Shown here piece by piece: positions 4,858 to 38,964 of a DNA stretch of 64,000 nt (within the stretch, counting starts at the first letter, position 1; each line of letters opens with the position of its first letter). The position numbers were made by a program, and so were the translations under genes. The stretch spans positions 5,952,001 to 6,016,000 of the forward strand of contig NZ_CP083590.1 of NCBI RefSeq assembly GCF_020099395.1, in the 5' to 3' direction. The DNA comes from Streptomyces mobaraensis (GTDB lineage: Bacteria; Actinomycetota; Actinomycetes; Streptomycetales; Streptomycetaceae). The notes under the pieces were generated by a model. It was not told the origin of the DNA and did no database searches. It saw only the letters and a program-made list of their open reading frames with translations.

Positions 4858-4893
4858 TGACGCATCTGGTGCAAAGCAGGTGGCGATGCGTCA
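4858..4893. promoter_or_regulatory. Perfect 9-bp inverted repeat between sflA and the DUF5685 gene
   Basis: TGACGCATC (4858-4866) and GATGCGTCA (4885-4893) are exact inverted copies separated by 18 bases. The site lies about 100 bp from both divergent starts, so it could be an operator for either gene or a transcript stem. No matching regulator is obvious. Confidence 0.45.
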
Positions 4894-4999
4894 GAAACCC
4901 CGAAGCCCCCGAAGCGAGCCCCCCGCTCGGCCGTGACCGGCCTGCACCGAGCCTATGGCTAGGATGCGCCAGTTGCTCGGCACCAACACGGGGGCGTCA

Positions 5000-6247: not shown

Positions 6248-6578
6248 GGGCTGACGGCCGGCGGCGGGTGTGACGGCGGTAGGTGTGACGGCCGCGGGTG
6301 TGACGGCGGCGCCTCTGTGGGGACTTGGGCTTCGCCCGGAGCGTGGTGCCTTCGGCCGTGCCGGGCGTTGCCTGTTGGGCGAGGGGTGTACGGGGTGAGG
6401 GGGACGGATGGGTGTCCATCCGGCGGGGAAGTGCCCGGAACGACCGGTTCGACCCTTGCGCCCGGGGCCGCCCGGCCGAATACTCCGTCCGAGCGTGCAG
6501 AGCTGAGCATGCGGTCACCGGCGTGTAGTCACCGGCGTGTAGTCACCGGTGTGCAGCCACCAGCGTGAGGACAGCAGC
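6248..6578. other. 331-bp gap with short tandem repeats, no gene seen
   Basis: The region after the Cys-rich gene starts with imperfect GTGTGACGGC repeats (6264-6310) that look like a continuation of the repetitive DNA coding the cysteine tail. It ends with the 14-bp tandem repeat next to the protease start. No open frame here has convincing coding character. Confidence 0.5.
6514..6555. repeat. Three tandem 14-bp repeats before the protease gene
   Basis: GTCACCGGCGTGTA is repeated at 6514 and 6528, with a third copy at 6542 changed at two positions. The array ends 11 bases before the GAGGA ribosome site of the protease, so it lies in the leader or promoter. Copy-number change would alter spacing, not frame. 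Confidence 0.75.
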
Positions 6579-7514: not shown

Positions 7515-7629
7515 GCCCGGTTCCGGGCCCGGGCGCCCGCTCCCCACACGTGCCCTCCCAGGGCTCGACCCAGGGTCCGGCGGGGCCTACCGTGGACATA
7601 TCACCTGTCGTGGGACACAGGGGGCCGTG

Positions 7630-14400: not shown

Positions 14401-15208
14401 CCTGCCCGTCGCCGAACGGCTGGCGCGCGTCGGCGCGTTGGACGCGTTCGGCACCAACCGCCGCGACCTCCTCCTGCACCTCGCGGAGCTCCACCGGCAC
14501 CAGCGGGGGGCCGGGGGGTCCCGGGGGTCCCGGCGGCGGGGGCCCGCCGCCACCCAGCCGACCCTGGTCGACGACGCGCGCACCGAGCCGATCGGCCTGC
14601 CCGACCTCGACGCGAAGGAGCGGCTGGGCGCCGAGCTGAACGTGCTCGGGATGGACACCTCGCGCCACCTGATGACCGATCACCGTGCATTTCTGCGGGA
14701 GTTGGGCGCGCTCCCGGCGAGCCGGCTGCGCGACGCGCGGCACGGCGAGACCGTCCTGGTCGCGGGCGCCAAGGCGGCCACCCAGACCCCGCCGATCCGG
14801 TCCGGCCGGCGGGTGGTCTTCGCGACCCTGGACGACGGCACCGGCCTGGTCGACTGCGCCTTCTTCGACGACTCCCACGCGGCCTGCGCCCACACGGTCT
14901 TCCACTCCTGGCTGCTGCTGGTCCGCGGCACGGTCCAGCGGCGCGGCCCGCGCAGCCTGAGCGTCGTCGGCGTCCGGGCCTGGAACCTGGCGGAACTGGC
15001 CGAGCTCCGGGCGGAGGGCGGCCTGGAGGCGGTGGCCGACGTGCTGGCCCGGCCGGCGGAGGAGCCCGCCGAGGCCACCCCCCGGCGGCGCGTCGAGATG
15101 CCCACCGGCTACGCGATGCACCCGTGGGCCGACCTCCGGCCGGCGGGCGAAGGGGCCGCCACCGGGCGGAAGTTGTGGCACGCGAGTCAGGGGAGTGCGG
15201 GGCGATGA
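11432..15208 (+). CDS. dnaE2: Error-prone DNA polymerase III alpha subunit (DnaE2/ImuC)
   Basis: 1258 residues. From residue ~76 it aligns with DnaE2: PHP domain (FTHLHTASGFSARYGASHPERL, ALTDRDTLAGAV), palm with catalytic PDIDIDVES (~529) and third Asp in KLDVLGVRMQSA (~682), fingers with GYADETRRALSKPE and GSYGFCKAHAVAFA, and an OB-fold (VLVAGAKAATQTPP, VVFATLDDGTGLVDC) near 1106. The lack of an exonuclease partner and the DnaE2 signatures mark it as the SOS mutasome polymerase. GGAGG lies 4 bases before the ATG. Residues 1-75 are a Ser/Ala/Pro low-complexity extension encoded by pyrimidine-rich repeats. The stop overlaps the next start (ATGA), so it is co-translated with the Y-family gene. 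Confidence 0.92.
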   Translation: MGAQSAFPSEPTRPGSSQAFPVFPGSSAASASSPSSPASAASASSPASPVSTAPASSPARRPAARGGAPRARTAPSFTHLHTASGFSARYGASHPERLAERAAERGMDALALTDRDTLAGAVRFARATAAAGVRPLFGVDLAVRGPEPAPGETVRRRTPVRGGAFVDESAPRAVFLARDGVLGWAALCGLVTAAHAGHAAHGGHAGHAGHTEPAGPVRHPGPAERPELPWAEAAAAAAGPRPPVFVLLGPDSEVGRALAAGRPDRAARLLAPWRETFGRALRLEVVWHGRTGTGPGSLRLAARTLGLAAEQGVPAVLTNAARYADPGQGPVADVLDAARRLVPVDFRRPEALDGGERWLKDPGAMAAAAERIAEAAGLRRAAAHRLLAATAETAAACRVDPEDDIGLGSVHFPEPRLVGADRRTADRVLRSRCTAGLVLRGYDRGPRGRVYRDRMDDELDVIARRGFASYFLTVARVVDDARELGVRVAARGSGAGSLVNHLLGIAGADPVEHGLLMERFLSVRRAALPDIDIDVESARRLDVYRAIFDRFGPERVATVAMPETYRVRHALRDVGAALGMDPAEVDRLAKAFPHIRARDARAALAELPELRGIRPERYGRLWELTEALDALPRGVAMHPCGVLLSDATLRGRTPVVPTSGEGFPMSQFDKDDVEELGLLKLDVLGVRMQSAMAHAVDEVERATGRRVDLDDPAQVRPGDPRTYALIRSAETLGCFQIESPGQRDLIGRLQPETFHDLVVDISLFRPGPVAADMVRPFIEARHGRAPARYPHPDLAEVLRETHGVVVFHEQVIEILRIMTGCDRGYADETRRALSKPELLGRVRAWFADRAAERGYSADVVRRTWEIVEAFGSYGFCKAHAVAFAVPTYQSAWLKAHHPAAFYAGLLTHDPGMYPKRLLLADARRHGVPVLPLDVNRSDSAYRIELVPERRFGIRLALSEVHGISEAETERIVVGRPYTSLPDLWQRARPGLPVAERLARVGALDAFGTNRRDLLLHLAELHRHQRGAGGSRGSRRRGPAATQPTLVDDARTEPIGLPDLDAKERLGAELNVLGMDTSRHLMTDHRAFLRELGALPASRLRDARHGETVLVAGAKAATQTPPIRSGRRVVFATLDDGTGLVDCAFFDDSHAACAHTVFHSWLLLVRGTVQRRGPRSLSVVGVRAWNLAELAELRAEGGLEAVADVLARPAEEPAEATPRRRVEMPTGYAMHPWADLRPAGEGAATGRKLWHASQGSAGR

Positions 15209-16647
15209 GCGAGATTCGGCCGAGGAGACTTACGCCCGTGCCGGGCGTGGGCCGAGAGGAGGCGGGGGCCGCCGGGGCGGACCGCCGCGCTCTTCGGACC
15301 ACCGGGGCGGGGCGTGGTTTTCCGGGGTCCGCCGGGCTGGGCCGTGGCTCCGTGGGGGCTGCCGGGTCGCGCCGTGGTTCTTCGGGCTCCGCCGGGTCGC
15401 GCCGTGGCTCCGCTGGGCCCGTCGGGCCGGGCGCGGCGGAGCGTCGCGTGCCGGAGTGGGCGGCGGAGCGCCGTTCCCCGGCCGCGCCGCCGGACCGCCG
15501 CGCGCCGGAGACGGCGGCCGGCCGCCGTGCCGTGGCGGCGGTGGGGGACCGCCGTGCCCGGGAGATCGCGCCGGGCCGCCGGCTCCGGGCGGCGCGTCGC
15601 GTGGCCCGGCCGGCGGGCGGGGCGGTCCGTCCGGCCACCCCCGTCACCCCCGTCACCCCCGTCCTTTACGTCCGCTTCCACCCGGCGGCCGCGGACACCC
15701 CCCTCGGCGAGGAGGACTACGACGGCCTCCTCGCCCTCCTCGCGGAGGTCACCCCCGTCGTGCAGGCGCTGCCGCCCGCCGCCGCGCTCGCCGACGTCCG
15801 GGGCGCGACCCGGTACTTCGGCCGCGACCCCGCCGGGCTCGCCGCCCTGCTGCGGGTCCGGAGCCTCGCCCGGTACGGCGTCGACTGCGCGGTCGGCGTC
15901 GCCGCCAACCCGATGCTGGCGCGGATGGCCGCCCAGGACGCGCCGCCCGGCGCGGTCCGCGTGCTGCCGGCGGACGACGCCAAGGTGGCCGCCTTCCTGG
16001 CCCGCAGGCCGGCCGCGGCGCTGCACGGCGTCGGCCCCGCCACCGCCCGTACCCTCTGCGCGTACGGGCTCGACAGCGTCGGCCGGATCGCCGCCGCGCC
16101 GCTGCCCGCGCTTCAGCGCATCCTGGGCGCCGCGGCCGGGCGGACGCTGTACGAGCGGGCGCGCGGCATCGACCCCACGCCGGTGACCCCGGAGGCGCGG
16201 GTCCGCTCGATGGGCGCGGAACACCGGTTCGGCGCCGACGAACTGGACCCGGAGCGCCGCCGCCGCGCCCTGCTCGCGCTCGCCGACGGGCTCGGGGCCC
16301 GGCTGCGCGGCGACGGCCAGGTCGCCCGCGGGCTCACCCTCACCGTCCGGTACGCCGACGGCTCCGCCACCACCCGTACCCGTACCTTCCCCGAACCGAC
16401 CGCCCACACCCCGGCGTTGACGGCCGTGGCGTACGAGCTGCACGGCGCGCTCGGCCTGCAGCGGGCCCGGGTCCGGGCGGTGGCGCTGCGCGCCGAGGGG
16501 CTCGCCGACGCCGAAGGGGCGCCGTCGCAGCTGACGTTCGACGCGGCCGACGACAAGGCGCGCCGGGTGGAGGCGGCCGTGGACCGGGCGCGGGCCCGCT
16601 TCGGCCCGACGGCGGTGGGCCCGGCGGCGGCGCTGCACGTCGCCTGA
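15205..16647 (+). CDS. ImuB-like Y-family polymerase homologue with degenerate active site
   Basis: 480 residues, start overlapping the dnaE2 stop by 4 bp. Residues 1-140 are a low-complexity Gly/Ser/Arg extension (repeats such as GSRRGSSGSAGSRRGS). From ~150 the Y-family fold follows: palm, GVAANPMLARMAAQDAPPG, helix-hairpin-helix ALHGVGPATARTLCAYGLDS, and little-finger domain (EHRFGADELDPERRRRALLALADGL). The palm motifs are altered: the first metal-binding Asp position reads VLYVRFHP (Arg instead of Asp), and the usual S-x-D-E motif reads ALADVRGATRYFG. The protein is therefore probably non-catalytic, like ImuB, acting as adaptor between DnaE2 and the sliding clamp; QLTFDAAD (~442) resembles a clamp-binding motif. 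It could also be annotated DNA polymerase IV-like. Confidence 0.85.
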   Translation: MSEIRPRRLTPVPGVGREEAGAAGADRRALRTTGAGRGFPGSAGLGRGSVGAAGSRRGSSGSAGSRRGSAGPVGPGAAERRVPEWAAERRSPAAPPDRRAPETAAGRRAVAAVGDRRAREIAPGRRLRAARRVARPAGGAVRPATPVTPVTPVLYVRFHPAAADTPLGEEDYDGLLALLAEVTPVVQALPPAAALADVRGATRYFGRDPAGLAALLRVRSLARYGVDCAVGVAANPMLARMAAQDAPPGAVRVLPADDAKVAAFLARRPAAALHGVGPATARTLCAYGLDSVGRIAAAPLPALQRILGAAAGRTLYERARGIDPTPVTPEARVRSMGAEHRFGADELDPERRRRALLALADGLGARLRGDGQVARGLTLTVRYADGSATTRTRTFPEPTAHTPALTAVAYELHGALGLQRARVRAVALRAEGLADAEGAPSQLTFDAADDKARRVEAAVDRARARFGPTAVGPAAALHVA

Positions 16648-25317: not shown

Positions 25318-25482
25318 GGCGGGTGTGAGACGGCGGGCGTGAGGTGGCGGGTGCGGGAGCGGCGGGTGTGAACGGGCGTGGGGGCGCCGGGGTGGCAGGG
25401 CGCGGGGCGCACGGCGCCGGACACCGGCGACGGACGGCGCACAATGGGTGACGCAACACCGCCCAGCCAGCCAGGAGACCAC

Positions 25483-25857
25483 GTGGCCTTGCACCTGACC
25501 GTCGACCCGGAAGCGCCCCAACCGCCCTACGAGCAGATCCGCGCCCACATCGCCGACCGGGCCCGCTCCGGCGCCCTGCCCGTCGGCCACCGGCTGCCGA
25601 CGGTCCGCGGCCTCGCCGAGGAACTGGGCGTCGCCGCCAACACCGTCGCCAAGGCCTACCGGGCCCTGGAGGCGGACGGCGTGATCGAGACCCACGGCCG
25701 CAACGGCACCTTCGTCGCCGCCCCCGGCGACACCGCCGACCGCGAGGCCGCGACCGCCGCCCGCGCCTACGCCGAACGGGCCCACCGGCTCGGCCTGGAC
25801 CGGGCGGCGGCGCTGGCGGCGGCGGAGGAGGCGCTGCGGGCGGTGTACGGGGACTGA
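25483..25857 (+). CDS. GntR-family regulator, YtrA subfamily
   Basis: 124 residues. A winged helix of the GntR type (PPYEQIRAHIADRARSGALP, LPTVRGLAEELGVAANTVAK, ALEADGVIETHGRNGTFV) is followed by a short ~45-residue C-terminal helical dimerisation segment, the small effector domain that defines the YtrA subfamily. The GTG at 25483 has a perfect AGGAGA 5 bases upstream (25473-25478) and is preferred to ATG 25444. YtrA regulators usually control neighbouring ABC transporters; none is here, so targets may lie elsewhere. Confidence 0.88.
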   Translation: MALHLTVDPEAPQPPYEQIRAHIADRARSGALPVGHRLPTVRGLAEELGVAANTVAKAYRALEADGVIETHGRNGTFVAAPGDTADREAATAARAYAERAHRLGLDRAAALAAAEEALRAVYGD

Positions 25858-27102: not shown

Positions 27103-28477
27103 ATGGGACGTCATGCCGGGGGACCGGCTGCCGGGGGACCGGCGTTGCCGAAACGGGGGCGGTGGCGGCTGACCGCCCTGCTCGCGGTCGTGGCCTGCGC
27201 CCTGGCCCTGCTGCTCGCCGCGATCCTCGCCGACTGGCGCTCCCGGGACGGCACGCCGTACGACGAGCGGGCCGCGGTCGGGTGGGGCTTCACCCACACC
27301 CAGTACAGCGCCGACCGCGGCGAGGACACCGCCCGGCGCACCGCCGCCAAGCTGCTCGCCGCCGAGTCCCTGCCGCAGAACCAGCACATCATGGGCTGGG
27401 GAGCGGACAACCCCGAGCCCAGGCCCGGCCGTTACAACTTCACCGACCTCGACCGCCGCGTCGCCCTGATGCGCCGCTCCGGCGGGACGCCCGTGCTCAC
27501 CCTCTGCTGCGCACCCGACTGGATGAAGGGCGGCGGGTCACGGACCGACTGGTCCCAGAAGTCCCTGGAGAAGGCTCCCGACCGCGGCCACTACCGGGAC
27601 TTCGCCCGGCTGGCCGGAGTCGTCGCCAAGCGCTACCCGGACGTCCACCACTTCATCGTCTGGAACGAACTCAAGGGCTTCTACGACGAATCCCGTAAGC
27701 GCTGGGACTACGAGGGGTACACCGAGCTCTACAACCTCGTCTACGAGGAGATCAGAAAACAGCGGGACGACGTCCTCATCGGCGGCCCGTACGTCGTCAT
27801 GGACAGCAACCCGCCCGACACGGCCTCCAATATCTCCTCCCTGCAAGGGCCGTGGGGGATCGTCGACCAGCGCGCCGTCGACGCCCTCGAGTACTGGAAC
27901 CGCCACAAGGCGGGCGCCGACTTCGTCGTCGTCGACGGCTCCAGCTACACCCGGGACGGCAACCGGCTCCTCCCCGACGAGTTCCGCGCCACCCGCAAGT
28001 TCGCCGACGTCACCACCTGGCTGCGGAAGACCACCGGCCTGCCCGTCTGGTGGGCCGAGTGGTACGTCGAACCCCCCGACGCCCAGGACAACCGGGCCGG
28101 CTGGACCGAGGAGCACCGCGTCGCCGTCCAGGCGACGGCCATGATGAACATGGCCGGATCCGGCGTCTCCGCCGCCTTCTACTGGAACCCCGAGACCGAC
28201 ACCGGCAACTGCCCCGGCTGCCTCTGGAACCCCACCGCGCTCGGCGGAGGCGGGGGGCGGCTGCCCATGATGGACCTCCTCTCCCGCTTCGCCCGGGAGT
28301 TCCCCCCCGGGGAAGGAGGTCCGCCGGCCGGACGTCACGGGCGCCGGCACCGACGTCCAGGCGCTCGCGTCGCGGGACGCGACGGTGGTCGTCAACACGC
28401 GGGACGCGGACGTACAGGTGCGGGTGGACGGGCGGGCGGTGGAGTTGAAGGGGTACGAGGTGCGGTGGCTGGGGTGA
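27103..28477 (+). pseudogene. GH39-like membrane-anchored glycoside hydrolase, frameshifted near its 3' end
   Basis: An N-terminal helix (LTALLAVVACALALLLAAIL) anchors a clan-A TIM-barrel glycosidase: WGFTHTQYSADRGEDT, QHIMGWGADNPEPRPGRYNF, acid/base Glu in HHFIVWNELKGFYDES and probable nucleophile Glu in VWWAEWYVEPPD, then SAAFYWNPETDTGNCPG. After residue ~400 the frame breaks at a run of seven C (28302-28308). Removing one C restores PPGKEVRRPDVTGAGTDVQ and a plausible beta-domain ending YEVRWLG at 28475. Both catalytic residues precede the lesion. It resembles GH39 enzymes associated with exopolysaccharide loci (for example PslG). It converges with the large flippase fusion gene, with one small gene between. 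The frameshift may be a sequencing error. Confidence 0.75.
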
Positions 28478-28482
28478 GGGCG

Positions 28483-28513
28483 TGCCGCCCCGGCCCCACC
28501 CTTTCGCCGTTTC
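28483..28513. repeat. Copy of the dispersed gene-end module
   Basis: TGCCGCCCCGGCCCCACC followed by CTTTCGCCGTTTC directly after the glycosidase stop is a variant of the module seen at 46265, 57998 and (inverted) 58501. All copies sit at gene 3' ends. Confidence 0.55.
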
Positions 28514-28689
28514 CGCGGTGGCTCCGCCCCCGCACCCCCATGAGCTCTGAGGACTCCGCCGGTCAGTCGACAGACCCCGGCAGACGACCGATGCGTCGGA
28601 CCGCCCGCTTGCGCAGCATGAGATGCCGCTCCCAACGGGCGGAGCGGGCCCGGCGGTCGCCCGACGACCGTCGTGGGTACGCTTCCGGG

Positions 28690-29181
28690 ATGCCCTACGA
28701 CATCACCTTCGTCCGGCGGCTCCCGGGCCGTACGGTCGTCGAGTCGCTCGACCTCAGGAACGCCGCTTTCGATGCCGCGGCCGAGCCGGAGCCCATGAGT
28801 CTGACGCCGGGGCAGCGCGCCGCGTGGGAGGAGGTCGTGCGGCGGGTGGGCGTGGAGGTCGGGCCTGTGGTCACGGAGGAGTTTCTCTACGGTCTGACGC
28901 TGGAGCGCAACGGTGACGTGGGGCGCGTACAGCTCGACTACGACGGGGAGTCGGCCGAGATCGCGCTCGCGTACCGTCATGACGGCGAGGCGGCGCGGCG
29001 GATCGTCGCGGAGGCGTACCGGATGGCGCGCATCGTCGAGGAGGTCACCGGGCTGACGGGGTTCGACTGCCAGACCGGGCGTCCGACGGCCGAGGGGGAT
29101 GTCGACGCGGCCGTCGGCTGCCTCGCCGGCGTCTCCCGGTGGGCGCAGGGTGAGATCCCCCGCCTGCTGACGGAGGGCTGA
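28690..29181 (+). CDS. Conserved small soluble protein of unknown function
   Basis: 163 residues, no signal peptide or membrane helix. It starts MPYDITFVRRLPGRTVVESL, has a central LTPGQRAAWEEVVRRVGVEVGP helix, a beta segment VGRVQLDYDGESAEIALAYR and an EAYRMARIVEEVTGLTGFDCQTG motif, with the single Cys in the last. Codon bias is strong throughout, supporting a real gene. Family not recognised. It lies convergent to the polysaccharide genes. Confidence 0.75.
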   Translation: MPYDITFVRRLPGRTVVESLDLRNAAFDAAAEPEPMSLTPGQRAAWEEVVRRVGVEVGPVVTEEFLYGLTLERNGDVGRVQLDYDGESAEIALAYRHDGEAARRIVAEAYRMARIVEEVTGLTGFDCQTGRPTAEGDVDAAVGCLAGVSRWAQGEIPRLLTEG

Positions 29182-29208
29182 GGCCGGGGCCGGGCGGCCT
29201 CATGGCCC

Positions 29209-32200
29209 TTATGACATCGTCGCCAGGCGCTGGACCAGGGCCGCCACCAGGACCGCCAGCAGCGGCATCGCGAACCAGAACGAGCCCTGCATCCAGCGCA
29301 CCTGCCGCACCCCCGGCCGCATCCCCACCCGGGTCAGTTCCCGGGCCGTCAGCAGGAGCAGCAGGGCGAGGGCCATGACGCCGCCGGTGACGGAGACGGG
29401 GGTCCAGGTGATGTGGGGGCCGGTGGGGCCGGGGCGGGGTGGGTCCGCGGGGCCGGGGGGCTTGTCGCGGAGTTCGTAGAGGGCCGCGTCGGTGTTGGTC
29501 AGGACGCGGCGGAGTTCCGGGCGGCGGTCCAGGGATCGGCGCATGCGGTGGTCCCAGTCCGCGGGGTAGCCGGCGCTGAGTTCCAGATAGGTGGACTGGC
29601 CGTGGTTGAGGGCCAGGTACGCGTTCGGGCCCGCCGCCCGGAGGGCCGTGACCAGGTCCGGCGCGCCGCCGGACGGGTCGCGGGGCGCGAGCGTCGGCTC
29701 GTACAGGACGCGTTCCATGTCCCGCGTGCCCCAGGGCATGGCCGGAGTGACGTTGTTGAGCGTGTCGCTGCTCATCCAGAGCAGTTTTACGGTCGGCCTG
29801 TCGTGCGCGTAGACGTAGTCCATGGCCGCCACCTCGCCCGGGCGGACGCGTTCGAAGTCCTCGTTGCCCCAGCGGGCCACCAGGAAGCCGAACAGCAGGA
29901 CCAGGCCGGCCGTCAGCGCGCACAGGGGGGCGGCCAGGGGGCGGGGTTTCCGCCCGGCCGCCGGGAAGAGGGCCAGGGCGCCCAGGACACAGGCGCCCGG
30001 CACCGCGAACAGGAAGACGCGCAGGGCCACTTCGCCGCCGTACGACTGCATCCCGAACGCCAGGAAGGGCACGCACGTCAGGACGGCCAGGGCCGTGTCG
30101 CCCACGCCCGCCCGGCGGCGGCGCCACCAGCCGAGGGCGGCGAGCGCGAAGACCCCGCCCGCGAGCGCCACCCGGGTGTACAGCATCAGCTTGTGCACCG
30201 GGTTGCCGCCCTCGATGCGGCCCGAGACGGACGACGAGACGTTGCCGCCCAACGAGCCCAGCCCGCCGAACAGTTCGTCGAAATGCCCCGACCAGTACGG
30301 CTCCGCCAGGAACCCCACCCACACCGCCAGCAGCACACCGCAGAGGAGCGGCAGGCCGCGCAGCGTGCAGCGGCGCACCAGCACCAACGCCGTCAGCACC
30401 CCCAGCATGACGAACGGCGTGAGCTGGTGGCTGGCGACCGACGCCGCGAACAGGGCGATCAGCACGCCCAGCAGGAGGGTCCGCGTCCGGCGGTCCGTCT
30501 CCTCCACCCGGCGCTCGCCGGGCAGCCGCCTGCCCGGGAGCTCGCCCGGCCAGCGGAACCAGACCAGCAGCACGGCCACGAAGAGGAGGTAGAAGACGTA
30601 GTTGAGGGACTGCGGCGAGAAGTAGTCCTGGCCGACCCAGCCGCAGAGCGCGAACAGCCACAGCGCCGTCCACTTGGCCCGCCAGTGCGCCCGCACGGCC
30701 CGCAGGAGCAGTGCCAGCGGCGCGAGGGAGAGGAGCTGGACGGCGAGCGGCCACCAGCGCAGCACCTCGGTGAGGTCGTCCACGCCGCACGCCCGCGCGG
30801 CGAACGCGGCGAGCGCGAAGAAGCCCGGCCAGCTCCAGCGTGCGTCCAGGTCGGGCGCGGCGGTGCCCGTCCTGTCGATGTAGTCGAGGAAGCCGAGGTG
30901 CTGCCAGGCCGTCGCGAAGCGGGGGCGGTCCTCCAGGACCGCCGGTACGGCGTGCAGGGACACCACCGTCGCCAGCAGGACGGCGGCCAGCAGCCAGGTG
31001 CGCGGCCGGGCGGGCACCAGCGCGGCGGCGAAGCACACGACCAGCAGCGCCGCCCCGACGAGGGTCGCCACCGGCAGCACCGAGACCAGCCCGAGGCCGC
31101 CCATCCCTTCGAGGTTGACCTCGCCGAGGGCGCGCAGGGGGAGCCAGTAGAGGGTGAGCGCGGCGGCGAGCAGGAGCCACGCGACCGCTTCCGGCCGCCA
31201 CCGCAGGCCGGCCCAACGGGTGGGAGAAGTCCGCTTCTTGACCGTGCCGGGCGGCTGGGAGGCTTCCGTTCGCGCGCGACGCCACGGCGTGCCGGAGAGC
31301 GTCACGGTCCCGTCCGTGTCCACGTCCGCGTCCTCCCGTGCGGACACGCCGGGAGGCGCGGCCTCGGCGGGGCGGCGGCCCGGGGCGGACGGCTCCCGGG
31401 CCGGGCCCACCGTGTCTCCCGCCGTCGCCGGACCCGTCGGGTCCGCCGCCGGGCGCACCCGGCCGTCCGGGGCCGCGCCCAATCCCGCCCCTGCGCCTGC
31501 GGCTTGACCCGCGCCCGCTTCCAGACCCGAGCTCGCGCTCAAACCCGCTCCCGCGCCCGGACTCGCGCTCCTGCCCGGACCTCCGTCCGTCCGTACCCGC
31601 AGGTGCGTCCGCGGAGCCGGGTCCCCGCCCCCCGCCGCACCCGTTCGCTCCTTGCGGAGGCGTACGCCTCCGCGCGCGGGGGCGGTGTCCGGGCGGTGGC
31701 CGTCGGTGTTCTCCGGTGTTTCCATGCTTCCTCGGCCCCCGTGCCCCCGTGCCGTCGTCCGGTCGTCGTCCGTGTCCGCCGGGCGGTCCCCGGCGGGCTG
31801 AGGCGTGGTCGCCGGGTGGTCCCCGGCGTTCTGAGGCGCGGCCCCCGTGTCGTCGCCGCCGGGCCTCGGCGTGCCGCCCGGTGCCGTGCGTGCGGTGCCG
31901 TCCCCCCGGAACGGCGGCGCGCCCCGGCCCGTGCCCTCCGCGCGGAGGGCGAGCGGCTCGGGGCAGAGGCGGACGTCCGGGCGGCGTTCGAGGTGGTCGA
32001 AGTCCAGCCGGACGCCGAGGGGGAGGGTGTCCGCGTCCAGGGCGGCGCGCAGGGCCCAGCGGGTGCCGTAGCCGGTCTCCGCGGCCCGGGCGCGGCGGCG
32101 GGACGCGAGGTCGGCCAGGTCGCCGTCGGGTGCGGCCTCGGCGGCGCGCTCCGGCGCGACCGCCCGGGGCCGGGAGGGGGCCCGGAGCACGCCCCACAGC

Positions 32201-33588
32201 TTCACCGCCGCCACCGAGGCGATCACCGTCAGGCTGGAGATCTCCGCGACCCCCGCCCCCGTCAGCCCCATGCGGGGGAGGAGCAGGAGCGTCAGGCCCA
32301 GGACCAGGACGCACAATAGCCCCTGGAGCCACGCCAGTCCCGCCGTCCGGCTCTGGGCCCGCAGCACGGCGAAGTACGTCTCCATGACCACCCGCAGCAC
32401 CGCGCCCACCGCGAACCAGCGCAGCAGCGGCGTCGCCTCCGTGTAGGCGGGGCCGAAGACCCCCAGGATCCAGGGCGCCAGGACGAACAGCAGCCCGCAC
32501 ACCGGCAGCATGAGCTTGGCCATCCGGCGCAGGGCGGCCCGGCAGTTCTCCGCCAGCCGCTCCGGGTCGTGCGAGCCCTCGACGGTCAGCGAGGCGCCCA
32601 TGTTGATGGCGAGCAGGTTGACCGTCCCGCCTATGGTGGACGCGATGTAGAAGTACGCGTTCTCGGCCGAGCTGATCTGCGAGGCGACGAGCACCGGCAC
32701 CAGGTAGACGACGGCCAGCGAGAACAGCGACCCGGTGTAGTCCCCGGCCAGGAACCGGCCGATCTCGCGGGCGGAGGCCGGACGCGCGGACGCCTCCGTC
32801 GTCCGGACGTGCTCGGGGACCAGCCGGCGGAACACCAGCCAGCCCAGCGGCAGTACGGAGACGGAGATCGACACCACCCAGGAGGCGAACACCCCGGTCC
32901 CCGGCAGCGCCGCCGCCAGGGCGATCAGCAGGGCGAGCTTGGCCGCGGAGAACGCGGTGTTCCCCACCGGCACCCACACCGCCTGGCGCAGCCCGGTCAG
33001 CACGCCGTCCTGGAGGGTCAGCAGCGACCAGGCGACGACGGCGGCGACGAACACCAGGCCGTGCGACGGCCCGCGCAGCGCCTCGTAGGACGGGCCCCAG
33101 AGGTCGAGGGTGCACAGGAAGACGCCCGCGGCGACGGCGACGACGAGCGAACTCGCCGCGTACGTACGGACCACCAGCCGTCCCGTCGTCCGGCCCGCGA
33201 CCGGTATGAAGCGGGCCAGCGCGCCGGTCAGGGTGACCGCGGTGAGGCCGGCGAGCAGCTTCATGGCGGCGATGGCCGCCGAGCCGCGGCCGACCGCGTC
33301 CTCGCTGTAGTAGCGGGCGGCGACCAGCCAGAAGCCGACCCCGAGCACGGCGCTGATGCCGGTGTTGAGCATCAGGGCGAACGCGTTGCGGAACAGCGGG
33401 TTCCCGCCGCGGCCCCCCTGCCCGCCACCGCTGCGGCCCCCGCCGTCGTGCCCGCCGGGCCCGCTCCGTCCGCCGCCCCCGCCCCGTCCCGGCAGCCGGA
33501 ATCCGCGGCCCGCCGGTGCCACCGCCCGCTCCTCGGTCCGTGCGGACACGTCCCGTGCGGACGGGTCCTGGGTGGACGTGTCAGCCAC
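29209..33588 (-). CDS. Wzx-like flippase fused to a GT-C/polymerase-like membrane domain
   Basis: 1459 residues in one frame. After a Gly-rich start, residues ~63-470 form a MATE/Wzx-type lipid-linked oligosaccharide flippase of ~12 helices (FALMLNTGISAVLGVGFWLV, LVASQISSAENAYFYIAST). Residues ~470-800 are a hydrophilic low-complexity linker. Residues ~800-1459 carry about a dozen further helices with long loops (WQHLGFLDYIDRTG, CGWVGQDYFSPQSLNYVFYL, VASHQLTPFVMLGV), resembling GT-C glycosyltransferases or O-antigen polymerases. The GTG is preceded by GAGGGG and overlaps the deacetylase end by 8 bp. An internal ATG at 31725 (residue 622) could start a separate second protein, but no stop intervenes. 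A single polypeptide for export and polymerisation would be unusual. Function is inferred from topology and neighbours. Confidence 0.8.
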   Translation of the reverse strand: MADTSTQDPSARDVSARTEERAVAPAGRGFRLPGRGGGGGRSGPGGHDGGGRSGGGQGGRGGNPLFRNAFALMLNTGISAVLGVGFWLVAARYYSEDAVGRGSAAIAAMKLLAGLTAVTLTGALARFIPVAGRTTGRLVVRTYAASSLVVAVAAGVFLCTLDLWGPSYEALRGPSHGLVFVAAVVAWSLLTLQDGVLTGLRQAVWVPVGNTAFSAAKLALLIALAAALPGTGVFASWVVSISVSVLPLGWLVFRRLVPEHVRTTEASARPASAREIGRFLAGDYTGSLFSLAVVYLVPVLVASQISSAENAYFYIASTIGGTVNLLAINMGASLTVEGSHDPERLAENCRAALRRMAKLMLPVCGLLFVLAPWILGVFGPAYTEATPLLRWFAVGAVLRVVMETYFAVLRAQSRTAGLAWLQGLLCVLVLGLTLLLLPRMGLTGAGVAEISSLTVIASVAAVKLWGVLRAPSRPRAVAPERAAEAAPDGDLADLASRRRARAAETGYGTRWALRAALDADTLPLGVRLDFDHLERRPDVRLCPEPLALRAEGTGRGAPPFRGDGTARTAPGGTPRPGGDDTGAAPQNAGDHPATTPQPAGDRPADTDDDRTTARGHGGRGSMETPENTDGHRPDTAPARGGVRLRKERTGAAGGGDPAPRTHLRVRTDGGPGRSASPGAGAGLSASSGLEAGAGQAAGAGAGLGAAPDGRVRPAADPTGPATAGDTVGPAREPSAPGRRPAEAAPPGVSAREDADVDTDGTVTLSGTPWRRARTEASQPPGTVKKRTSPTRWAGLRWRPEAVAWLLLAAALTLYWLPLRALGEVNLEGMGGLGLVSVLPVATLVGAALLVVCFAAALVPARPRTWLLAAVLLATVVSLHAVPAVLEDRPRFATAWQHLGFLDYIDRTGTAAPDLDARWSWPGFFALAAFAARACGVDDLTEVLRWWPLAVQLLSLAPLALLLRAVRAHWRAKWTALWLFALCGWVGQDYFSPQSLNYVFYLLFVAVLLVWFRWPGELPGRRLPGERRVEETDRRTRTLLLGVLIALFAASVASHQLTPFVMLGVLTALVLVRRCTLRGLPLLCGVLLAVWVGFLAEPYWSGHFDELFGGLGSLGGNVSSSVSGRIEGGNPVHKLMLYTRVALAGGVFALAALGWWRRRRAGVGDTALAVLTCVPFLAFGMQSYGGEVALRVFLFAVPGACVLGALALFPAAGRKPRPLAAPLCALTAGLVLLFGFLVARWGNEDFERVRPGEVAAMDYVYAHDRPTVKLLWMSSDTLNNVTPAMPWGTRDMERVLYEPTLAPRDPSGGAPDLVTALRAAGPNAYLALNHGQSTYLELSAGYPADWDHRMRRSLDRRPELRRVLTNTDAALYELRDKPPGPADPPRPGPTGPHITWTPVSVTGGVMALALLLLLTARELTRVGMRPGVRQVRWMQGSFWFAMPLLAVLVAALVQRLATMS

Positions 33589-35641
33589 GCGCCCCTCTTG
33601 CCTTTCTCATCGCCTGCCGGCCCCTGCGGACGACGGCGTACCCCTTGGTCAGGGCCCGGTCGGCGGCGAACAGCCGGCCGAGCGCCCGGCCGTGCACCAT
33701 GCGTTCGAAGTCGGGGATCCCCGTCGTCCGGCGCACGGTAACCCGGCGCACCGCGTACGGCCCCTGCCGGCGGGCGGCCAGGCCGTTGCCCACCGCCAGG
33801 GAGATCCCGAAGCCGGCCGAGCGCACCGCCTGCCGCACCCGGCGGCTGGAGTACCCGTAGGGGTAGGCGAACGAAACCGGCGGCCGGCCCAGTTCGCCGG
33901 TGAGGATCTCCCGGCACCGGTCGAGTTCGAACACCAGGCCCGCGTCGGGCAGTTGATCGAGCTGCGGGTGGGTGTGGCTGTGCCCGCCGATCTCGGCGCC
34001 GGCCTCGGCCAGCTCGCGCACCTGGTCCCAGGTGAGCATGAGGTCGAGCGCGCCCCCGGTGTCGTACGGCCCGCGCAGCCAGCCCGTGGAGACGAACACT
34101 GTGGAGCGGAAACCGAGTTCGGCGAGGACGGGGAGGGCGTGCCGGTGCACGCCCTCGTAGCCGTCGTCGAAGGTGATCAGCACCGGTTTCGGCGGCAGCG
34201 GACGGCCGTCCCGCCAGGCTCCGGCCAGTTCCCCGGCCGTCAGCGGGACGAAGCCGGCCGCGTCCAGCAGCCGCATTTGCTCGGCGAACGCCTCCGGCGC
34301 GACGGACAGCGCGTGCGCCGCCCGGGAGGGGGAGTGCGCCACGGAGTGGTACATGAGGATCGGCACTTCGGTGGGTGTCGTCATGCGGCGCCCCCTTCCC
34401 CGCCGCCGGGCGGCCGGGCCGCCGTGACCTCTGACGCCGTGACTTCCGGCGCCGTGACCTCCGGCGCCGTGACCTCCGGCGCCGTGACCTCCGGCGCCGT
34501 GACGCCCGACGCCGTGGCTTCCGGCGCCGCGACTCCCGACGTCGTGACGCCCGGCGCCGTGACTTCCGGCGCCGTGACGCCCACCGCCGTGACCTCCGGC
34601 GCCATGACTCCCGCCACCGTGGCCCCCCGCCACCGCGAACCGCCCGCCGCCCCGGCGCGCCCGGACGCTGCCGACCGCGTAGCCGGCCGTGGCGGCGGCC
34701 ACCCCGGTGAGGATCGCCGCGGCCCGCCCGGCGCCGCCGGGCCGGCCGAGCAGGGCGTCGCGCAGCCCGCGCGCCACGCCCGCCGGGAGCACCCGGGTCG
34801 TGTAGCGGCGCTCGGTCGCGAGCCCGTCGCGCGCGCCGACGCTGTGCGCCACCAGCGCCTTGGACAGGCCCTCGGCGTACGCCCGGGTGCGCAGATAGCC
34901 GAACCGTTCCCGCTCGGCCGGGACCCGGTGGTGGATCACCGCCCGGTCGTCGATCAGCAGCACCGCCCCGGGCACCGCCCGGGCCAGCCGGATGCACAGC
35001 TCCGTCTCCTCGCAGCCCAGCGGCAGCCGGTGGCCGTCCCGGCCGATGCCGGAGGCGAACCCGCCGACGGCCGTCAGCGCCGATCTGCGGAACGAGGCGT
35101 TGCCGCCGAGGACGTTGCGCACCCGCACCCGGCCGGGCGGCAGGCCGCGGTACGTGCAGCCCACCGCCCAGTCCATCTCCTCGGGGAACCACGCGGGCCG
35201 GGCCCGCGAGGCCCACACCGGCTGGGTGCGCCCGCCGACCGCCATCACGCGCGGATCGGCATACGCCCGGGCGAAGTGCAGCAGCCAGTCGCGCTCGGCC
35301 ACCGCGTCGTCGTCCAGGAAGGCGACCACCTCCCCGGACGAGGCCGCGACGCCGGTGTTGCGGCCGGCGGACAGGCCGCGCGGGCCGGCGTTGGCCAGCA
35401 CCCGGACGCGGCCCGCGGTGCCGTCCGGCGCGCCGAGCCCGTCGTCGCCGTACACCTTGGCCAGCCGGCGCAGCAGCGCCGGGTTGTGGTCCACGACGAG
35501 CAGGGTCTCGCGCGCCGGGTAGGACTGCGCGGCCACCGAGGCCACCGCGGCGAGGATGTCGCCCCAGCGGTCCTCGGTGTAGACGCAGACGACCACCGAG
35601 ACGTCCGGCGCCGTGGTCCGCTCCGCCGGCGCTGTGCTCAA
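33581..35641 (-). CDS. Glycosyltransferase family 2 - polysaccharide deacetylase fusion
   Basis: 686 residues in one uninterrupted frame. Residues ~15-300 are a GT2 fold (VSVVVCVYTEDRWGDILAAV, AGRNTGVAASSGEVVAFLDDD for the DxD region, GCEETELCIRL), then one membrane helix. Residues ~334-407 are a Gly-His-Gly-Ala-type pentapeptide repeat encoded by a 15-bp minisatellite. Residues ~420-686 are a NodB-type deacetylase (VPILMYHSV, LITFDDGYEG, HSHTHPQL, SFAYPYGYSS) with the metal-binding Asp and His pair intact. The TTG start overlaps the previous stop (TTGA) and has GGAGG 4 bases upstream. An internal ATG at 34384 could begin a separate deacetylase, and relatives may have two genes. The pair would add a sugar and de-N-acetylate the glycan. 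Confidence 0.82.
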   Translation of the reverse strand: MSTAPAERTTAPDVSVVVCVYTEDRWGDILAAVASVAAQSYPARETLLVVDHNPALLRRLAKVYGDDGLGAPDGTAGRVRVLANAGPRGLSAGRNTGVAASSGEVVAFLDDDAVAERDWLLHFARAYADPRVMAVGGRTQPVWASRARPAWFPEEMDWAVGCTYRGLPPGRVRVRNVLGGNASFRRSALTAVGGFASGIGRDGHRLPLGCEETELCIRLARAVPGAVLLIDDRAVIHHRVPAERERFGYLRTRAYAEGLSKALVAHSVGARDGLATERRYTTRVLPAGVARGLRDALLGRPGGAGRAAAILTGVAAATAGYAVGSVRARRGGGRFAVAGGHGGGSHGAGGHGGGRHGAGSHGAGRHDVGSRGAGSHGVGRHGAGGHGAGGHGAGGHGAGSHGVRGHGGPAARRRGRGRRMTTPTEVPILMYHSVAHSPSRAAHALSVAPEAFAEQMRLLDAAGFVPLTAGELAGAWRDGRPLPPKPVLITFDDGYEGVHRHALPVLAELGFRSTVFVSTGWLRGPYDTGGALDLMLTWDQVRELAEAGAEIGGHSHTHPQLDQLPDAGLVFELDRCREILTGELGRPPVSFAYPYGYSSRRVRQAVRSAGFGISLAVGNGLAARRQGPYAVRRVTVRRTTGIPDFERMVHGRALGRLFAADRALTKGYAVVRRGRQAMRKARGARG
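34421..34630. repeat. 15-bp minisatellite, 14 tandem units
   Basis: The unit GCCGTGACCTCCGGC is repeated 14 times without interruption; three adjacent copies (34451-34495) are identical and the others differ by 1-4 bases. Because 15 is a multiple of three, all frames through it stay open and copy-number changes keep the fusion protein in frame. Confidence 0.95.
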
Positions 35642-36507
35642 GACACCTCCCCGCGGCTCGCGGCCGGCGCGATGGCCAGCGGCCGGCGGGCCGGGTGCTT
35701 GCGCCGCCGGGAGCCGCGCTCGTGCAGGATGACCTTGAGGACCCGCAGCCCGTCGCGCACCGCCCGCAGGTTGCTGGCGCCGTGGATGCGGACGAACTCG
35801 TGGCTGGGGATCTCCTGGACCCGCAGGCCGGCCTTGACGACTCTGATGTTCATCAGCGTCTCCACCTCGAAGCCGGCGCAGTCCAGGGCGATGTCGTCCA
35901 GGACGCGCTTCCAGAAGGCGTTGTACCCGTAGCACAGGTCCGTGTAGCGGGCGCCGAACTTGTGGTTGACGATCGAGCACAGGACGCGGTTGCCCAGCTT
36001 GCGGATGGGCGTCATGTCGTCCGTGCCGCCCCCGTTGGCGAACCGGGACCCCTTGGCGAAGTCCGCGCCGCCCACCAGGGCCGAGACGTAGCTGACGATC
36101 TCGTTGCCGTCGGCCGAGCCGTCGGCGTCCACCATCACGATGATCTCACCCGAGCAGGCGGCGAACCCGGTGATCAGGGCGTCGCCCTTGCCCTTGCCCT
36201 GCTGTTCGACGACCTTGACGCCGGGCCAGAGCTCCCGGGCCACCTTGACGGTGTCGTCGGTGGAGTTGCCGTCGACGAGGACCACCTCGTGGATCCAGGA
36301 CGGCAGGGTCTTGAAGACGTACGGCAGGTTCTCCGCCTCGTTCATCGCGGGGATCACCACGCTGACCGGCGGTGCTATCGCGAACTGCGGCGACACCGGG
36401 CGGTACTGGGCGGGTGGTTCGAGGGGCCGGGCGGTCTCGCCGCCGGCGTCGGTCCCGGGGGCCCGGTCGTGGTCCTGACCGGCCGCCGGGCGCAGGAACG
36501 AACTCAT
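35638..36507 (-). CDS. DPM1-like family 2 glycosyltransferase
   Basis: 289 residues. A ~40-residue disordered N-terminus precedes a complete GT2 domain: PVSVVIPAMNEAENLPYVF, EVVLVDGNSTDDTVKVARE, GKGDALITGFAACSGEIIVM with the DADGS metal-binding motif, KGSRFANGGGTDDMTPIRKLGNR and DLCYGYNAFWKRVLD. These features match dolichol/polyprenyl-phosphate sugar transferases that make the lipid-linked sugar donor used by GT-C enzymes outside the membrane. That fits the GT-C-like domain encoded downstream. No membrane helices are present at the C-terminus, so it is peripheral. The stop overlaps the next start (TTGA), indicating translational coupling. Confidence 0.88.
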   Translation of the reverse strand: MSSFLRPAAGQDHDRAPGTDAGGETARPLEPPAQYRPVSPQFAIAPPVSVVIPAMNEAENLPYVFKTLPSWIHEVVLVDGNSTDDTVKVARELWPGVKVVEQQGKGKGDALITGFAACSGEIIVMVDADGSADGNEIVSYVSALVGGADFAKGSRFANGGGTDDMTPIRKLGNRVLCSIVNHKFGARYTDLCYGYNAFWKRVLDDIALDCAGFEVETLMNIRVVKAGLRVQEIPSHEFVRIHGASNLRAVRDGLRVLKVILHERGSRRRKHPARRPLAIAPAASRGEVS

Positions 36508-36923
36508 GAGTCTCTGTTTCCCTCTCGTCCGGAGGACCGCCCGCCCCCGAGCGGTCCCATGGTGTGTCCGGTTCGAAAAGGGGGTCTCGCCCTGTCCGGT
36601 GCGGCGGGCAACCACCGCGCGCACAGGGTGAGTTGGCGAATAGCACAGGCCGCGCGGCACGCGACTCGGCACGGATCTCCCCGGCCGAGCGCGGCACCCC
36701 CTGCCGCGCCCCGCCCCGGATCCATCGCGGCGACTGGAGCCCCTCCCCGGAGCCGCGAGAACTGATGGACCGATGCGGGTAGATGTACGACGGTATTGAA
36801 GCTTGAGACTGTATGGCAAGAGGTGAGTCGGAGCCTCCTCCTTTGGTGTCCTTTGTTCCTGACGCACCGTCCGGTGTGCGAACGCACACCCGGAGCGCAC
36901 CGGCGCATGGTGTCCGCCGCGGC
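36508..36923. other. 416-bp gap, probable internal promoter region
   Basis: This AT-richer spacer separates the acetyltransferase gene from the glycosyltransferase genes on the same strand, suggesting two transcripts. GGTGTGCG and CGCACACC (36873-36880 and 36883-36890) form an 8-bp hairpin just past the acetyltransferase stop, a possible terminator. No gene is supported. Confidence 0.45.
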
Positions 36924-38018
36924 TCAGACGCTCCGCCGCAACCGTCCCACCTGCTTGAGCAGCCGGTCGGCGGGTTCGAAGAGTTGGGGGCGTGCGACGA
37001 CGGTGTTGCGCAGCGCACGCACCGGCGCACGCCGGGCCTTGTGCCCCAGCGCGACCGGATGACGCCGCATCACCCACCCTTCGGACACGGCGAGTTCGCG
37101 CGTCTTCAGGGAGTCCTTGTACGCCTTGCCGCCCCGCCCGAGGTCCAGATGGGTCAGCCCCGCGGCGGCGGCCCCCTCCGCCATCCGCACATGCAGCACC
37201 AGGCCGGGCGAGTACTTCGCGAACCCCGGGTCGTACGCCGGGAACCAGCACGCCAGCACCGTCCGCGACCGCAGCCCGAAGTGCGCCGCGACCGGCCGGC
37301 CACCCGCGTAGAGCACGGACAGCAGGCCGCCGAACGCCTCCGAGCGGGTGTGGAAGAGCTGCTCGACCAGCCGGGAGATCCAGGGGCGCGCGAAGCGGTC
37401 GCTGCGCCCCGTTCTTCGGTACTGCGCGGACTTCCAGCCGATCAGCGTGCGCAGTACGGCCGGGTCCCGCTCGTCGTGCACGTACCGCACCCCGCCCGCG
37501 TCCCGGCCGAGCCGGCGCTCCTTCGCCAGCGTGGTGCGGGTGAACTTGGGCGACTGCTTGCGCAGCGCCGCCAGATAGGAGTCGAAGCCCTGCTCGACGT
37601 CGATCACGGGCGAGGGGAAGGCGGCGACCGCCCCCTCCTCGAAGGGCTTCTGCCCCTCCACCAGGTGGTCGAACTCCCACAGCGACAGCCCGCAGGCCGT
37701 CAGCAACTCCTTGGCGTCCCACTGGAATCCGGGCCGGTGCACCAGCCCCTGGGCGTCCGAGACACCGAGCCCGATCGCCCGCCCGATCCCGAACGCCGAA
37801 CGCTGAAAAGGGAAGAAGGCGGCCGGAGCACCCTCCTCGCGGACGACGGCGATCCGGACGCCGCGCCGGCAGCGGCCCACCGCCAGCGCGAACTCCGGTG
37901 CCAGAAAAGGGTTTCCGAGCTGCGGCGCACCGTCCTCCACCGCCCGCGCCTGCATGGCCGACCACGCCGCCCGGTCGGCCGCGGTGAGTTCACCCGGGCG
38001 GTGGACACTGACCTCCAC
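36924..38018 (-). CDS. CelD/BioF2-type acetyltransferase (GNAT fold)
   Basis: 364 residues. The central part (FDSYLAALRKQSPKFTRTTL, ILxW-like RTLIGWKSAQYRRTGRSDRF, LSVLYAGGRPVAAHFGLRS, LACWFPAYDPGFAKYSPGLVLH, HLDLGRGGKAYKDSLKT) matches the BioF2-like/Acetyltransf_6 domain of proteins annotated as involved in cellulose or exopolysaccharide acylation. It is related to FemAB transferases. It probably acylates a sugar or lipid-linked intermediate on the cytoplasmic side. The GTG start lies 2 bp past the stop of the preceding membrane-protein gene, so the two are co-transcribed and probably coupled. Confidence 0.83.
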   Translation of the reverse strand: MEVSVHRPGELTAADRAAWSAMQARAVEDGAPQLGNPFLAPEFALAVGRCRRGVRIAVVREEGAPAAFFPFQRSAFGIGRAIGLGVSDAQGLVHRPGFQWDAKELLTACGLSLWEFDHLVEGQKPFEEGAVAAFPSPVIDVEQGFDSYLAALRKQSPKFTRTTLAKERRLGRDAGGVRYVHDERDPAVLRTLIGWKSAQYRRTGRSDRFARPWISRLVEQLFHTRSEAFGGLLSVLYAGGRPVAAHFGLRSRTVLACWFPAYDPGFAKYSPGLVLHVRMAEGAAAAGLTHLDLGRGGKAYKDSLKTRELAVSEGWVMRRHPVALGHKARRAPVRALRNTVVARPQLFEPADRLLKQVGRLRRSV

Positions 38019-38019
38019 C

Positions 38020-38580
38020 TCAGGTCGTCCGGTCGCTCGTGCCGCGCCCCCGGTGGCGCCAGGCGTGCGCCAGCAGGAAGAGGAGCAGGCTGACCGCCGC
38101 GACCGCGGCCACCCCGCCGCGCACCGTCCAGCTGTGCAGCGCGAGCATGGTCTGGGCGGTCAGCAGGTCGACCGCGACGGCCCCGCCGGCGGCCACCACG
38201 GCGCGGCTGAGCGGGTCGAGCCCGCGCAGCGCGGCGGCCACGCCGCAGGCGGGCGCCACGATCAGGAAGAAGAGGGTGAAGGGCGCCCGGAGCGGCGAGC
38301 CGATGTCCAGCAGCGCCAGCGCCGCGCCCGCCCCGGCCATCGCGGCGGCGGCCCCGGCGACGACGGGCAGGGAGTCCGCGGCCGGACGGGAGAGGGGACC
38401 GCCGCCTCTCCCCGGGTGCCCGGGCGGCCCGCCGGGCGGGCCGGAACCGGACGGGCCGTCGGGCGGTTTCGCGCCGTACGGTCCTCCCGGTGGTCCGCCG
38501 GACGGCCCGCCGGGCGGTTCCTGGCCCGCGGTACGGAGATCGCTGTCATCGAGACCGATGGGATCGCTGAAGCTCTGCAT
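38020..38580 (-). CDS. Small Pro/Gly-rich integral membrane protein
   Basis: 186 residues. The first ~85 residues are hydrophilic and dominated by Pro-Gly repeats (GGPSGGPPGGPYG type), followed by about four membrane helices (AGAAAAMAGAGAALALLDIG, FTLFFLIVAPACGVAAALRG, VVAAGGAVAVDLLTAQTML, GGVAAVAAVSLLLFLLAHAW). The ATG at 38580 begins MQSFSDPIGLDDSD. A longer frame start exists but lacks coding character. It heads the leftward polysaccharide gene run. The role is unknown; it could be an assembly or scaffold protein. Confidence 0.68.
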   Translation of the reverse strand: MQSFSDPIGLDDSDLRTAGQEPPGGPSGGPPGGPYGAKPPDGPSGSGPPGGPPGHPGRGGGPLSRPAADSLPVVAGAAAAMAGAGAALALLDIGSPLRAPFTLFFLIVAPACGVAAALRGLDPLSRAVVAAGGAVAVDLLTAQTMLALHSWTVRGGVAAVAAVSLLLFLLAHAWRHRGRGTSDRTT

Positions 38581-38964
38581 TGGCGACTTAGCCCCCCGAA
38601 GCGCCGGATGCCGGGCTTCAATGTCGCGCAACGGGCGAAGGCCGTCAAGACGTGAAGGAAGGGCGAACAGGCTTCTGGGCGCGGGTCCCGGCCACAAACG
38701 GAGCCTTGCCTCCCGGTGAACGTCCGGCGCGCCCCCTTCATCGTCAACTCACGTCTGAGTGACCGCTGTTCGAGTGATCATCCGGTTCCTTCGTTGACGC
38801 CCGGCGGGGGGTGACGCGCGGTCCGGGGCGGCCACCACGTCCTTCATCCTTCACGGAATGGCCACCGGGGTGGGGATGTGCCGCAAGATTTGTCATGGAC
38901 ACTTCCGGCAGCTCCGTGTCGCTGCTACCACAGGGGTGGCAGAGACCCCTGCTAGGGAGGATCC
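38581..38964. other. 384-bp divergent promoter region
   Basis: The gap separates the leftward polysaccharide run from the rightward lipase. CAGGGGT (38931-38937) and ACCCCTG (38945-38951) form a 7-bp hairpin immediately before the lipase ribosome site, possibly stabilising or modulating that leader. No gene is supported. Confidence 0.45.

Follow-up and report, generated by a model that had tools for sequence, protein, structure and literature searches.

The analysed window comprises 64,000 nucleotides of Streptomyces mobaraensis (contig NZ_CP083590.1, positions 5,952,001 to 6,016,000), lying at 5.95-6.02 Mb on the first contig of a 7.67-Mb genome, with a G+C content of 67-78% in 2-kb steps. 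It contains a compact locus whose genes point to the synthesis and export of a surface glycan. A preliminary description, made from the sequence alone, had presented this locus as a leftward run of membrane protein, acyltransferase, glycosyltransferase, deacetylase and flippase genes towards which a glycosidase gene converges. The features of the locus, in window coordinates, are as follows.

27103..28474, + strand: GH39/PslG-like glycosidase with an N-terminal membrane anchor; frame broken near 28300
29209..33588, − strand: a single protein made of a flippase-like domain (PST/PelG-like, weak), a variable linker and a GT-C glycosyltransferase
33581..34384, − strand: CE4 (NodB-type) polysaccharide deacetylase domain; PF01522, 95.6 bits (cut-off 23.1); no membrane segment
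34385..35641, − strand: AglG-like GT2; PF00535; NF041394, 201.6 bits; its TTG start overlaps the DPM stop (TTGA)
34420..34608, − strand: tandem repeat (15 bp x 12.6) in the GT2 tail; the open frame continues through the array
35638..36507, − strand: DPM/AglJ-like GT2, a predicted polyprenyl-phosphate glycosyltransferase; PF00535, 83 bits
36520..36581, − strand: leader RNA preceding DPM; P1 pairs the Shine-Dalgarno sequence (SD) GAGAGGG, P2 is CCGG/CCGG, P3 is a covarying hairpin
36924..38018, − strand: CelD/BioF2-like GNAT acyltransferase; PF13480 (Acetyltransf_6), 145.7 bits; no membrane segment; optional
38020..38580, − strand: MEM, a small membrane protein with three hydrophobic segments, present in 68/68 loci with both flanks
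38581..38648, − strand: promoter-like element and leader upstream of MEM; TTGAC ... GACATTGAAGCCCGGCATCC ... ATG; 67 loci and the window

The leftward gene list and its domain families were recovered as first described, together with both start/stop overlaps (TTGA between DPM and GT2, 8 bp between deacetylase and flippase) and the anchored GH39-like glycosidase reading rightward from 27103. The single run in which these genes had been placed was not, and two transcription units are probable, as detailed below.

The locus is a real, conserved unit. The locus set consisted of the best 80 of 319 relatives of the flippase-GT-C protein (L001-L080), of which 79 are titled Streptomyces; the exception, L022, is titled Streptosporangium nondiastaticum. 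When these 80 loci were searched by tblastn, GT-C was found in 80, GH39, flippase and CE4 in 78 each, GT2 and DPM in 74 each, MEM in 73 and CelD in 55, and in the six loci without DPM and GT2 a contig end lies close to the match. All 68 loci with both flanking markers showed MEM, DPM, GT2, CE4, flippase-GT-C and the convergent GH39 gene in the same order and on the same strands, which is more than chance would produce. Homologues scattered without conserved neighbours, the finding that according to the preliminary description would speak against the locus, are excluded by this fixed order. CelD was found in 51 of the doubly flanked loci and was absent from 17, and it is therefore regarded as optional. 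The GT-C of L022 is 76% identical and the locus is syntenic with Streptomyces; the record is perhaps misnamed.

Several neighbouring genes were considered as members. An Asn synthase-like gene (ASN) probably does not belong, as it occurred in only 17 of the 68 flanked loci. The GntR, mycothiol-synthase-like GNAT and GDSL lipase genes were rejected because the GntR and GDSL genes also stand close together in genomes free of the locus, and HYP25872 was rejected because a relative was found in 1/80 loci.

Co-inheritance was evident in 150 sampled genomes of the genus, with orthologs accepted at E at most 1e-120 for GT-C and at most 1e-40 for the GH39-like protein. GT-C was present in 54 genomes, the GH39-like protein in 54 and both in 53 (Fisher value 2e-38, relatedness ignored). 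The discordant genomes were G090, with GT-C only and in pieces, and G120, with GH39 only (46%); the weaker, fragmented GT-C match of G065 was left out of the count. Outside the genus, orthologs at the family level reached 62-68% identity in genera g7, g8, g13 and g16 and 46-48% in g3, and at the class level family f17 gave matches at 41-47%. A second GT-C group, approximately 31-38% identical and often found as neighbouring gene pairs, occurred in many genus genomes without the locus and in a few with it.

For comparison of the chromosomal site, 12 genomes were picked, namely 11 without a GT-C match (among them G120, with its GH39 match) and G090. Regions around the GDSL gene were covered in 11 genomes including G090, and G120 was covered by its GH39 contig only. 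In the ten genomes other than G090, the GDSL and GntR genes were separated by 1.9 to 4.8 kb (between match starts). Remnants were observed at the site, comprising MEM in L126, a GH39 fragment in L132 and pieces of most core genes in L127 (G090). These remnants, together with L124, suggest an old locus decaying at a fixed site rather than a recent arrival. Both L127 and L124 (G065) are broken or partial locus copies.

The site in S. coelicolor is presumably also empty of the locus, judging from gene numbers. By its neighbour, the flanking GntR gene of the window (25378-25857, + strand) resembles SCO1728 of S. coelicolor, a GntR gene that, in the available part of the source, adjoins a mycothiol-synthase-like gene as in the window (PMC9739823). 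SCO1728 is also listed, in the accessible portion of another report, among S. coelicolor insertion targets with strongly raised actinorhodin (PMC6585502).

Two fusions had been proposed for the locus, and one of them stands. Flippase and GT-C occupied a single frame in 75/78 loci, the exceptions being L018, L050 and L069. GT2 and CE4 lay in different frames in 73/74 loci and shared a frame in L050 and in the window; in seven relatives with the junction read, the GT2 stop overlaps the deacetylase start. The shared open frame of the window, which ends at 33581, crosses the 15-bp repeat array in the GT2 tail. A GT2-deacetylase fusion was consequently rejected as a hallmark of the locus.

Outside Streptomyces, the fusion state was read by direct stop-codon comparison. 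Open-frame length was dropped as a criterion, since chance alone accounts for the long frames of G482 and genus g3. One frame was found in L119-L122 (g7, g16, g8 and g13) and in L106 (f17), and separate genes were found in nine distant loci: L105 and L107-L109 (f17), L115-L118 (g3) and L123 (g15). The nine unfused loci keep the order DPM, GT2, CE4, flippase, GT-C, with CelD between DPM and GT2 in L105. Beyond Streptomyces and its near relatives, the flippase-GT-C fusion is not conserved. Further genes of the related L107 cluster (f17; 2280-8562 and 15138-16379) encode a DegT aminotransferase, another CelD, a kinase of the APH type and a DUF418/HGSNAT-like protein.

Regarding the individual proteins, the DPM-like GT2 matched AglJ (TIGR04182) best among the NCBIfam models listed, at 142.4 bits against a cut-off of 325, and its nearest solved chain was dolichol monophosphate mannose synthase. 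For the second GT2, NF041394 (AglG) was the best among the models listed, with its score below the cut-off of 440, and no solved chain was matched. CE4 deacetylases carry TFDDG and HxxxH metal/catalytic motifs, and the domain belongs to this family, with TFDDG in at least 97% and HSHxHP in at least 90% of 93 sequences. MEM gave no Pfam match at E 0.01, the best reaching E 0.03 (DUF6541, 2/17 sequences).

A GT2 and a CE4 domain are likewise combined in MatAB, according to the part of the source available (PMC5972031), and the locus could accordingly represent a matAB pathway of the poly-N-acetylglucosamine (PNAG) type or another known Streptomyces glucan or teichulosonic acid pathway. On a sequence comparison with the PNAG type, this is highly improbable. 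The GT2 reached 20.9 bits with the PgaC/IcaA model, whose cut-off is 422.3, and the best PgaC/IcaA score in the whole genome, 71.3, lies outside the locus. The CE4 domain of the locus has no membrane segment, whereas that of MatB is described in the same source as extracellular, behind a membrane helix (PMC5972031). The distinction from matAB drawn in the preliminary description thus appears to hold, and the proteins fall outside the PNAG type.

The GT-C domain was modelled with a pLDDT (predicted local distance difference test) of 86.9. GT-C enzymes topped both the Foldseek and the VIA fold lists, and the predicted model has the multi-transmembrane core of these enzymes. The top fold matches were transferases such as AftD, ArnT, AftA and oligosaccharyltransferase (OST). 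A role in protein glycosylation would make the GT-C an oligosaccharyltransferase or Pmt-like enzyme that passes the modified glycan to secreted proteins, as a bacterial counterpart of archaeal Agl; the eleven highest VIA rows are STT3 and AglB chains, and the two GT2s are most like AglJ and AglG. Identity to the STT3/AglB chains is only about 8-13%, however, and fold alone shows no acceptor. Oligosaccharyltransferases of the STT3/AglB/PglB kind carry the motif WWDxG, and WWD was present in 0/29 aligned GT-C proteins, which places them outside this group. Protein glycosylation is considered distinctly unlikely.

The GH39-like protein scored 23.3 bits with PF01229 (gathering score 26), short of the Pfam GH39 family. 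A profile of 25 GH39-like sequences matched GH39 xylosidases and PslG among solved structures. Enzymes of GH39 and clan GH-A carry two catalytic Glu residues (NE and WxE) on a TIM barrel, and both, E189 and E319, were invariant in the 25 sequences, in keeping with this family and clan. In Foldseek, the predicted model gave PslG as the best match (TM-score 0.58-0.64), with a Croceicoccus glucosidase and GH39 xylosidases also on top. The frame breaks near 28300, and the C-terminal part matches relatives in another frame, to 28474. The break region (28290-28474, + strand) lies in a G/C-rich run, and the aligned relatives keep one frame; the break may be genuine or an error of assembly. Between this gene and the end of flippase-GT-C, a small open reading frame (28690-29181, + strand) had one match, in L082 (57%, 44 bits), and no match in L001-L080.

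PslG comes from an exopolysaccharide system, and this fold match, the weak PelG match of the flippase and two PF00953 genes elsewhere in the genome would all suit a Wzx/Wzy-like exopolysaccharide pathway, in which a housekeeping phosphoglycosyltransferase starts the repeat unit on polyprenyl diphosphate, the unit is flipped, the GT-C polymerises it and the PslG-like enzyme edits the free polymer. Against this, no Wzz, Wzy or initiating transferase was found among the Pfam/NCBIfam matches of the locus proteins (a remote partner is possible), only two GT2s are present, the first of them DPM/AglJ-like, and the fold matches of the GT-C are transferases. Such a pathway is judged unlikely.

Upstream of DPM, the locus carries a 62-nt structured RNA whose stem P1 hides the SD. 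Among loci with a DPM match of at least 250 bits, a GAGAGG-type motif was found by pattern in 71 and not in 13; six of the latter contain the same element with small changes, and L069 matches the leader model. An alignment of 52 sequences, including the window, gave an RNAalifold consensus of −35.8 kcal/mol with the same three helices as had been drawn beforehand by eye. In P1, CCCUUUCG pairs with CGAGAGGG (SD); in P2, CCGG pairs with CCGG; and in P3, GGRCCGCCC pairs with GGGCGGUCC. Pairing was observed in 99.2% of 1089 cells, compared with 38-62% in slid versions. Double-sided changes affected 5 pairs and 11 cells, compared with 1.5 and 2.4 in shuffles, and all were located in P3, so that the structure is established by covariation of this one helix. 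The window leader alone folded at −43.9 kcal/mol (z −2.8).

When a leader model built from A7, whose members match by construction, was run on the 80 loci, 73 matches were strong (E under 1e-20), every one at the DPM start, and the leader was present in all 74 DPM-holding loci except L073. The model also matched L119-L122, from four other genera of the family, and gave no credible match in g3, g15 or f17. Weak matches in L118 (E 0.0085) and L114 (0.82) and second matches in L002 (0.0017), L038 (0.01) and L063 (0.14) were treated as chance; as these second matches sit inside A8, the double changes in helix 1 of A8 were not used. Rfam yielded nothing credible, the best score at the leader being 15 bits against a gathering score of 43. 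In L105, a CCCCCCCUUU stretch upstream of DPM could pair with the SD in a single fold, and the region otherwise shows no leader similarity. In the accessible part of a 2024 survey of Streptomyces leaders covering 50 genomes, no glycan gene is named and the main text contains no 'glycosyl' (PMC11109978).

The same element could instead act in DNA as an operator palindrome, or serve simply as a stabilising hairpin, without an RNA switch. P1 and P2 hardly vary and thus carry no covariation of their own, and no conserved ligand-like loop was seen in the alignment of 52 sequences. Two observations are at odds with it: one P3 pair appears as A-U in 34, G-U in 13 and G-C in 5 of the 52 sequences, where G-U would be a mismatch in DNA, and the P1 pairing covers exactly the SD. 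An operator or plain hairpin is thus somewhat unlikely. As a structured RNA, the leader probably gates synthesis of the first enzyme, its closed form hiding the ribosome-binding site, a sense of control that we infer from the pairing.

A second conserved element directly precedes MEM. A TTGAC box is followed by a variable spacer and then, reaching the start codon, by approximately 45-50 bases that hardly vary. The element was located and could be aligned in the window and 67 loci, always close to MEM. The genome has just one copy of it when up to 3 mismatches are allowed, on which ground a regulon was rejected. A structured RNA was also rejected (RNAalifold −7.1 kcal/mol, one pair with compensatory change), as was a coding function, since single-base indels shift the frame between species. 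A scan for consensus promoters and terminators around MEM and CelD, this element included, found none. The element may represent a promoter in which the first transcribed bases are conserved as well. Because of this promoter-like element, the 416-bp gap between CelD and DPM and DPM's own conserved leader, the genes probably form two transcription units rather than one run.

Taken together, we favour, with reasonable though far from full confidence, an account in which a short lipid-linked glycan containing an amino sugar is produced and exported by the locus, being flipped and then transferred outside the cell. The DPM/AglJ-like enzyme would load a sugar onto polyprenyl monophosphate, and the AglG-like GT2 would add a second. 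The CE4 enzyme would then take off the N-acetyl group in the cytoplasm, and the CelD-like enzyme, where present, would acylate the product, perhaps on the freed amine. As the deacetylase and the acyltransferase have no membrane segments, both modifications probably take place in the cytoplasm, prior to flipping. The flippase domain would turn the glycan outward and the fused GT-C would hand it to an external acceptor, a wall polymer or a protein, after which the membrane-anchored PslG-like enzyme would trim or release glycan outside. Each reaction, the sugar identity, the lipid carrier and the acceptor are putative. The lipid-linked glycan with de-N-acetylation, acylation, flipping and external trimming that had been proposed initially fits the domains found, and as an overall interpretation it is partly supported.

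Several observations weigh against this account. The AglJ and AglG scores fall far short of the equivalog cut-offs and do not allow the sugars to be named. The flippase-like assignment is suggested by weak matches to PF01943 and PF16933 (Polysacc_synt, PelG), at 19.0 and 24.4 bits against cut-offs of 28.2 and 29 and hence outside these families, and by 9 hydrophobic segments counted; this domain matched no solved chain. The GT-C gave no Pfam match over the cut-off (scattered weak matches, the best being DUF4131 with E 0.0013 in 2/29) and none in a profile search of solved structures. In Foldseek, its rows at E 0.001 or less show TM-scores of just 0.24-0.50 and rmsd of 9-16, WWD is lacking as noted above, and the enzyme may polymerise instead of transfer. 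Given the two PF00953 genes, the carrier could instead be a diphosphate whose assembly begins at another place in the genome. L106 has the fusion without a good GT2 and without any CE4 match beside it, contrary to a strict unit; roughly two thirds of the genomes sampled from the genus lack the locus; and the near-invariance of P1 and P2 counts here as well.

A more far-reaching version, namely a bacterial Agl-like monophosphate route with N-deacetylation and acylation before export and a first enzyme gated by a new ligand- or state-sensing SD-hiding leader RNA, is speculative and, taken whole, improbable. If true, the leader RNA would inform a surface-sugar pathway of the state of the envelope or of precursors.

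No description of the locus or gene combination was found in a literature search whose coverage mostly excluded subscription journals and preprints; on that search, the locus is an apparently undescribed combination of known enzyme kinds. The structured leader RNA before DPM is a new finding and well supported, and it offers a direct handle on translation and on any envelope or sugar signal that may open the stem. The locus occurs in approximately one third of the genomes sampled from the genus (54/150), occupying the same chromosomal site in those loci that were read. Few surface glycans are known in this genus, whose hyphal surface has a bearing on pelleting, attachment and production, and the locus would contribute another. 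The fused and unfused relatives link the flippase-like and GT-C domains as a testable pair.

When compared with known systems, the locus shares flippase, CE4 and BioF2-like acyltransferase genes with wps-3 of Actinoplanes missouriensis, which the available part of the source describes as Wzx/Wzy/Wzz with GT4, gsf being of the GtrA type; the in silico description of these clusters given there contains no flippase-GT-C fusion (PMC13390465). Streptomyces MatAB similarly unites GT2 and CE4 activities in one locus, whereas here the CE4 is usually encoded by its own gene, the GT2 is not PgaC-like, and a flippase and a GT-C are present.

In the Agl N-glycosylation pathway of Haloferax volcanii (AglJ, AglG, AglR, AglS/AglB), AglS is a GT-C, and the likeness extends to two consecutive GT2s most like AglJ/AglG and to separate flippase-like and GT-C steps. 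Agl sugars are built on lipid phosphate, as proposed for the locus, according to the accessible part of the source (PMC3871713). In contrast to Agl, the locus has no OST motif and stays below the Agl cut-offs, its flippase and GT-C are fused, and CE4, CelD and GH39 are added. A likeness to the Psl exopolysaccharide system lies in the PslG match of the GH39-like protein and its conserved catalytic Glu pair, but no Wzy, Wzz or initiating transferase family was found among the locus proteins, and a GT-C transferase system adjoins the GH39 gene. Rhizobial NodC, NodB and NodA bring a GT2, a deacetylase of the CE4 family and an acyltransferase together in the cytoplasm, a logic that the locus appears to share. 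In contrast to Nod, the GT2 scores just 31.5 bits with NodC (cut-off 550), CelD belongs to PF13480, and the product is predicted to be lipid-linked and flipped.

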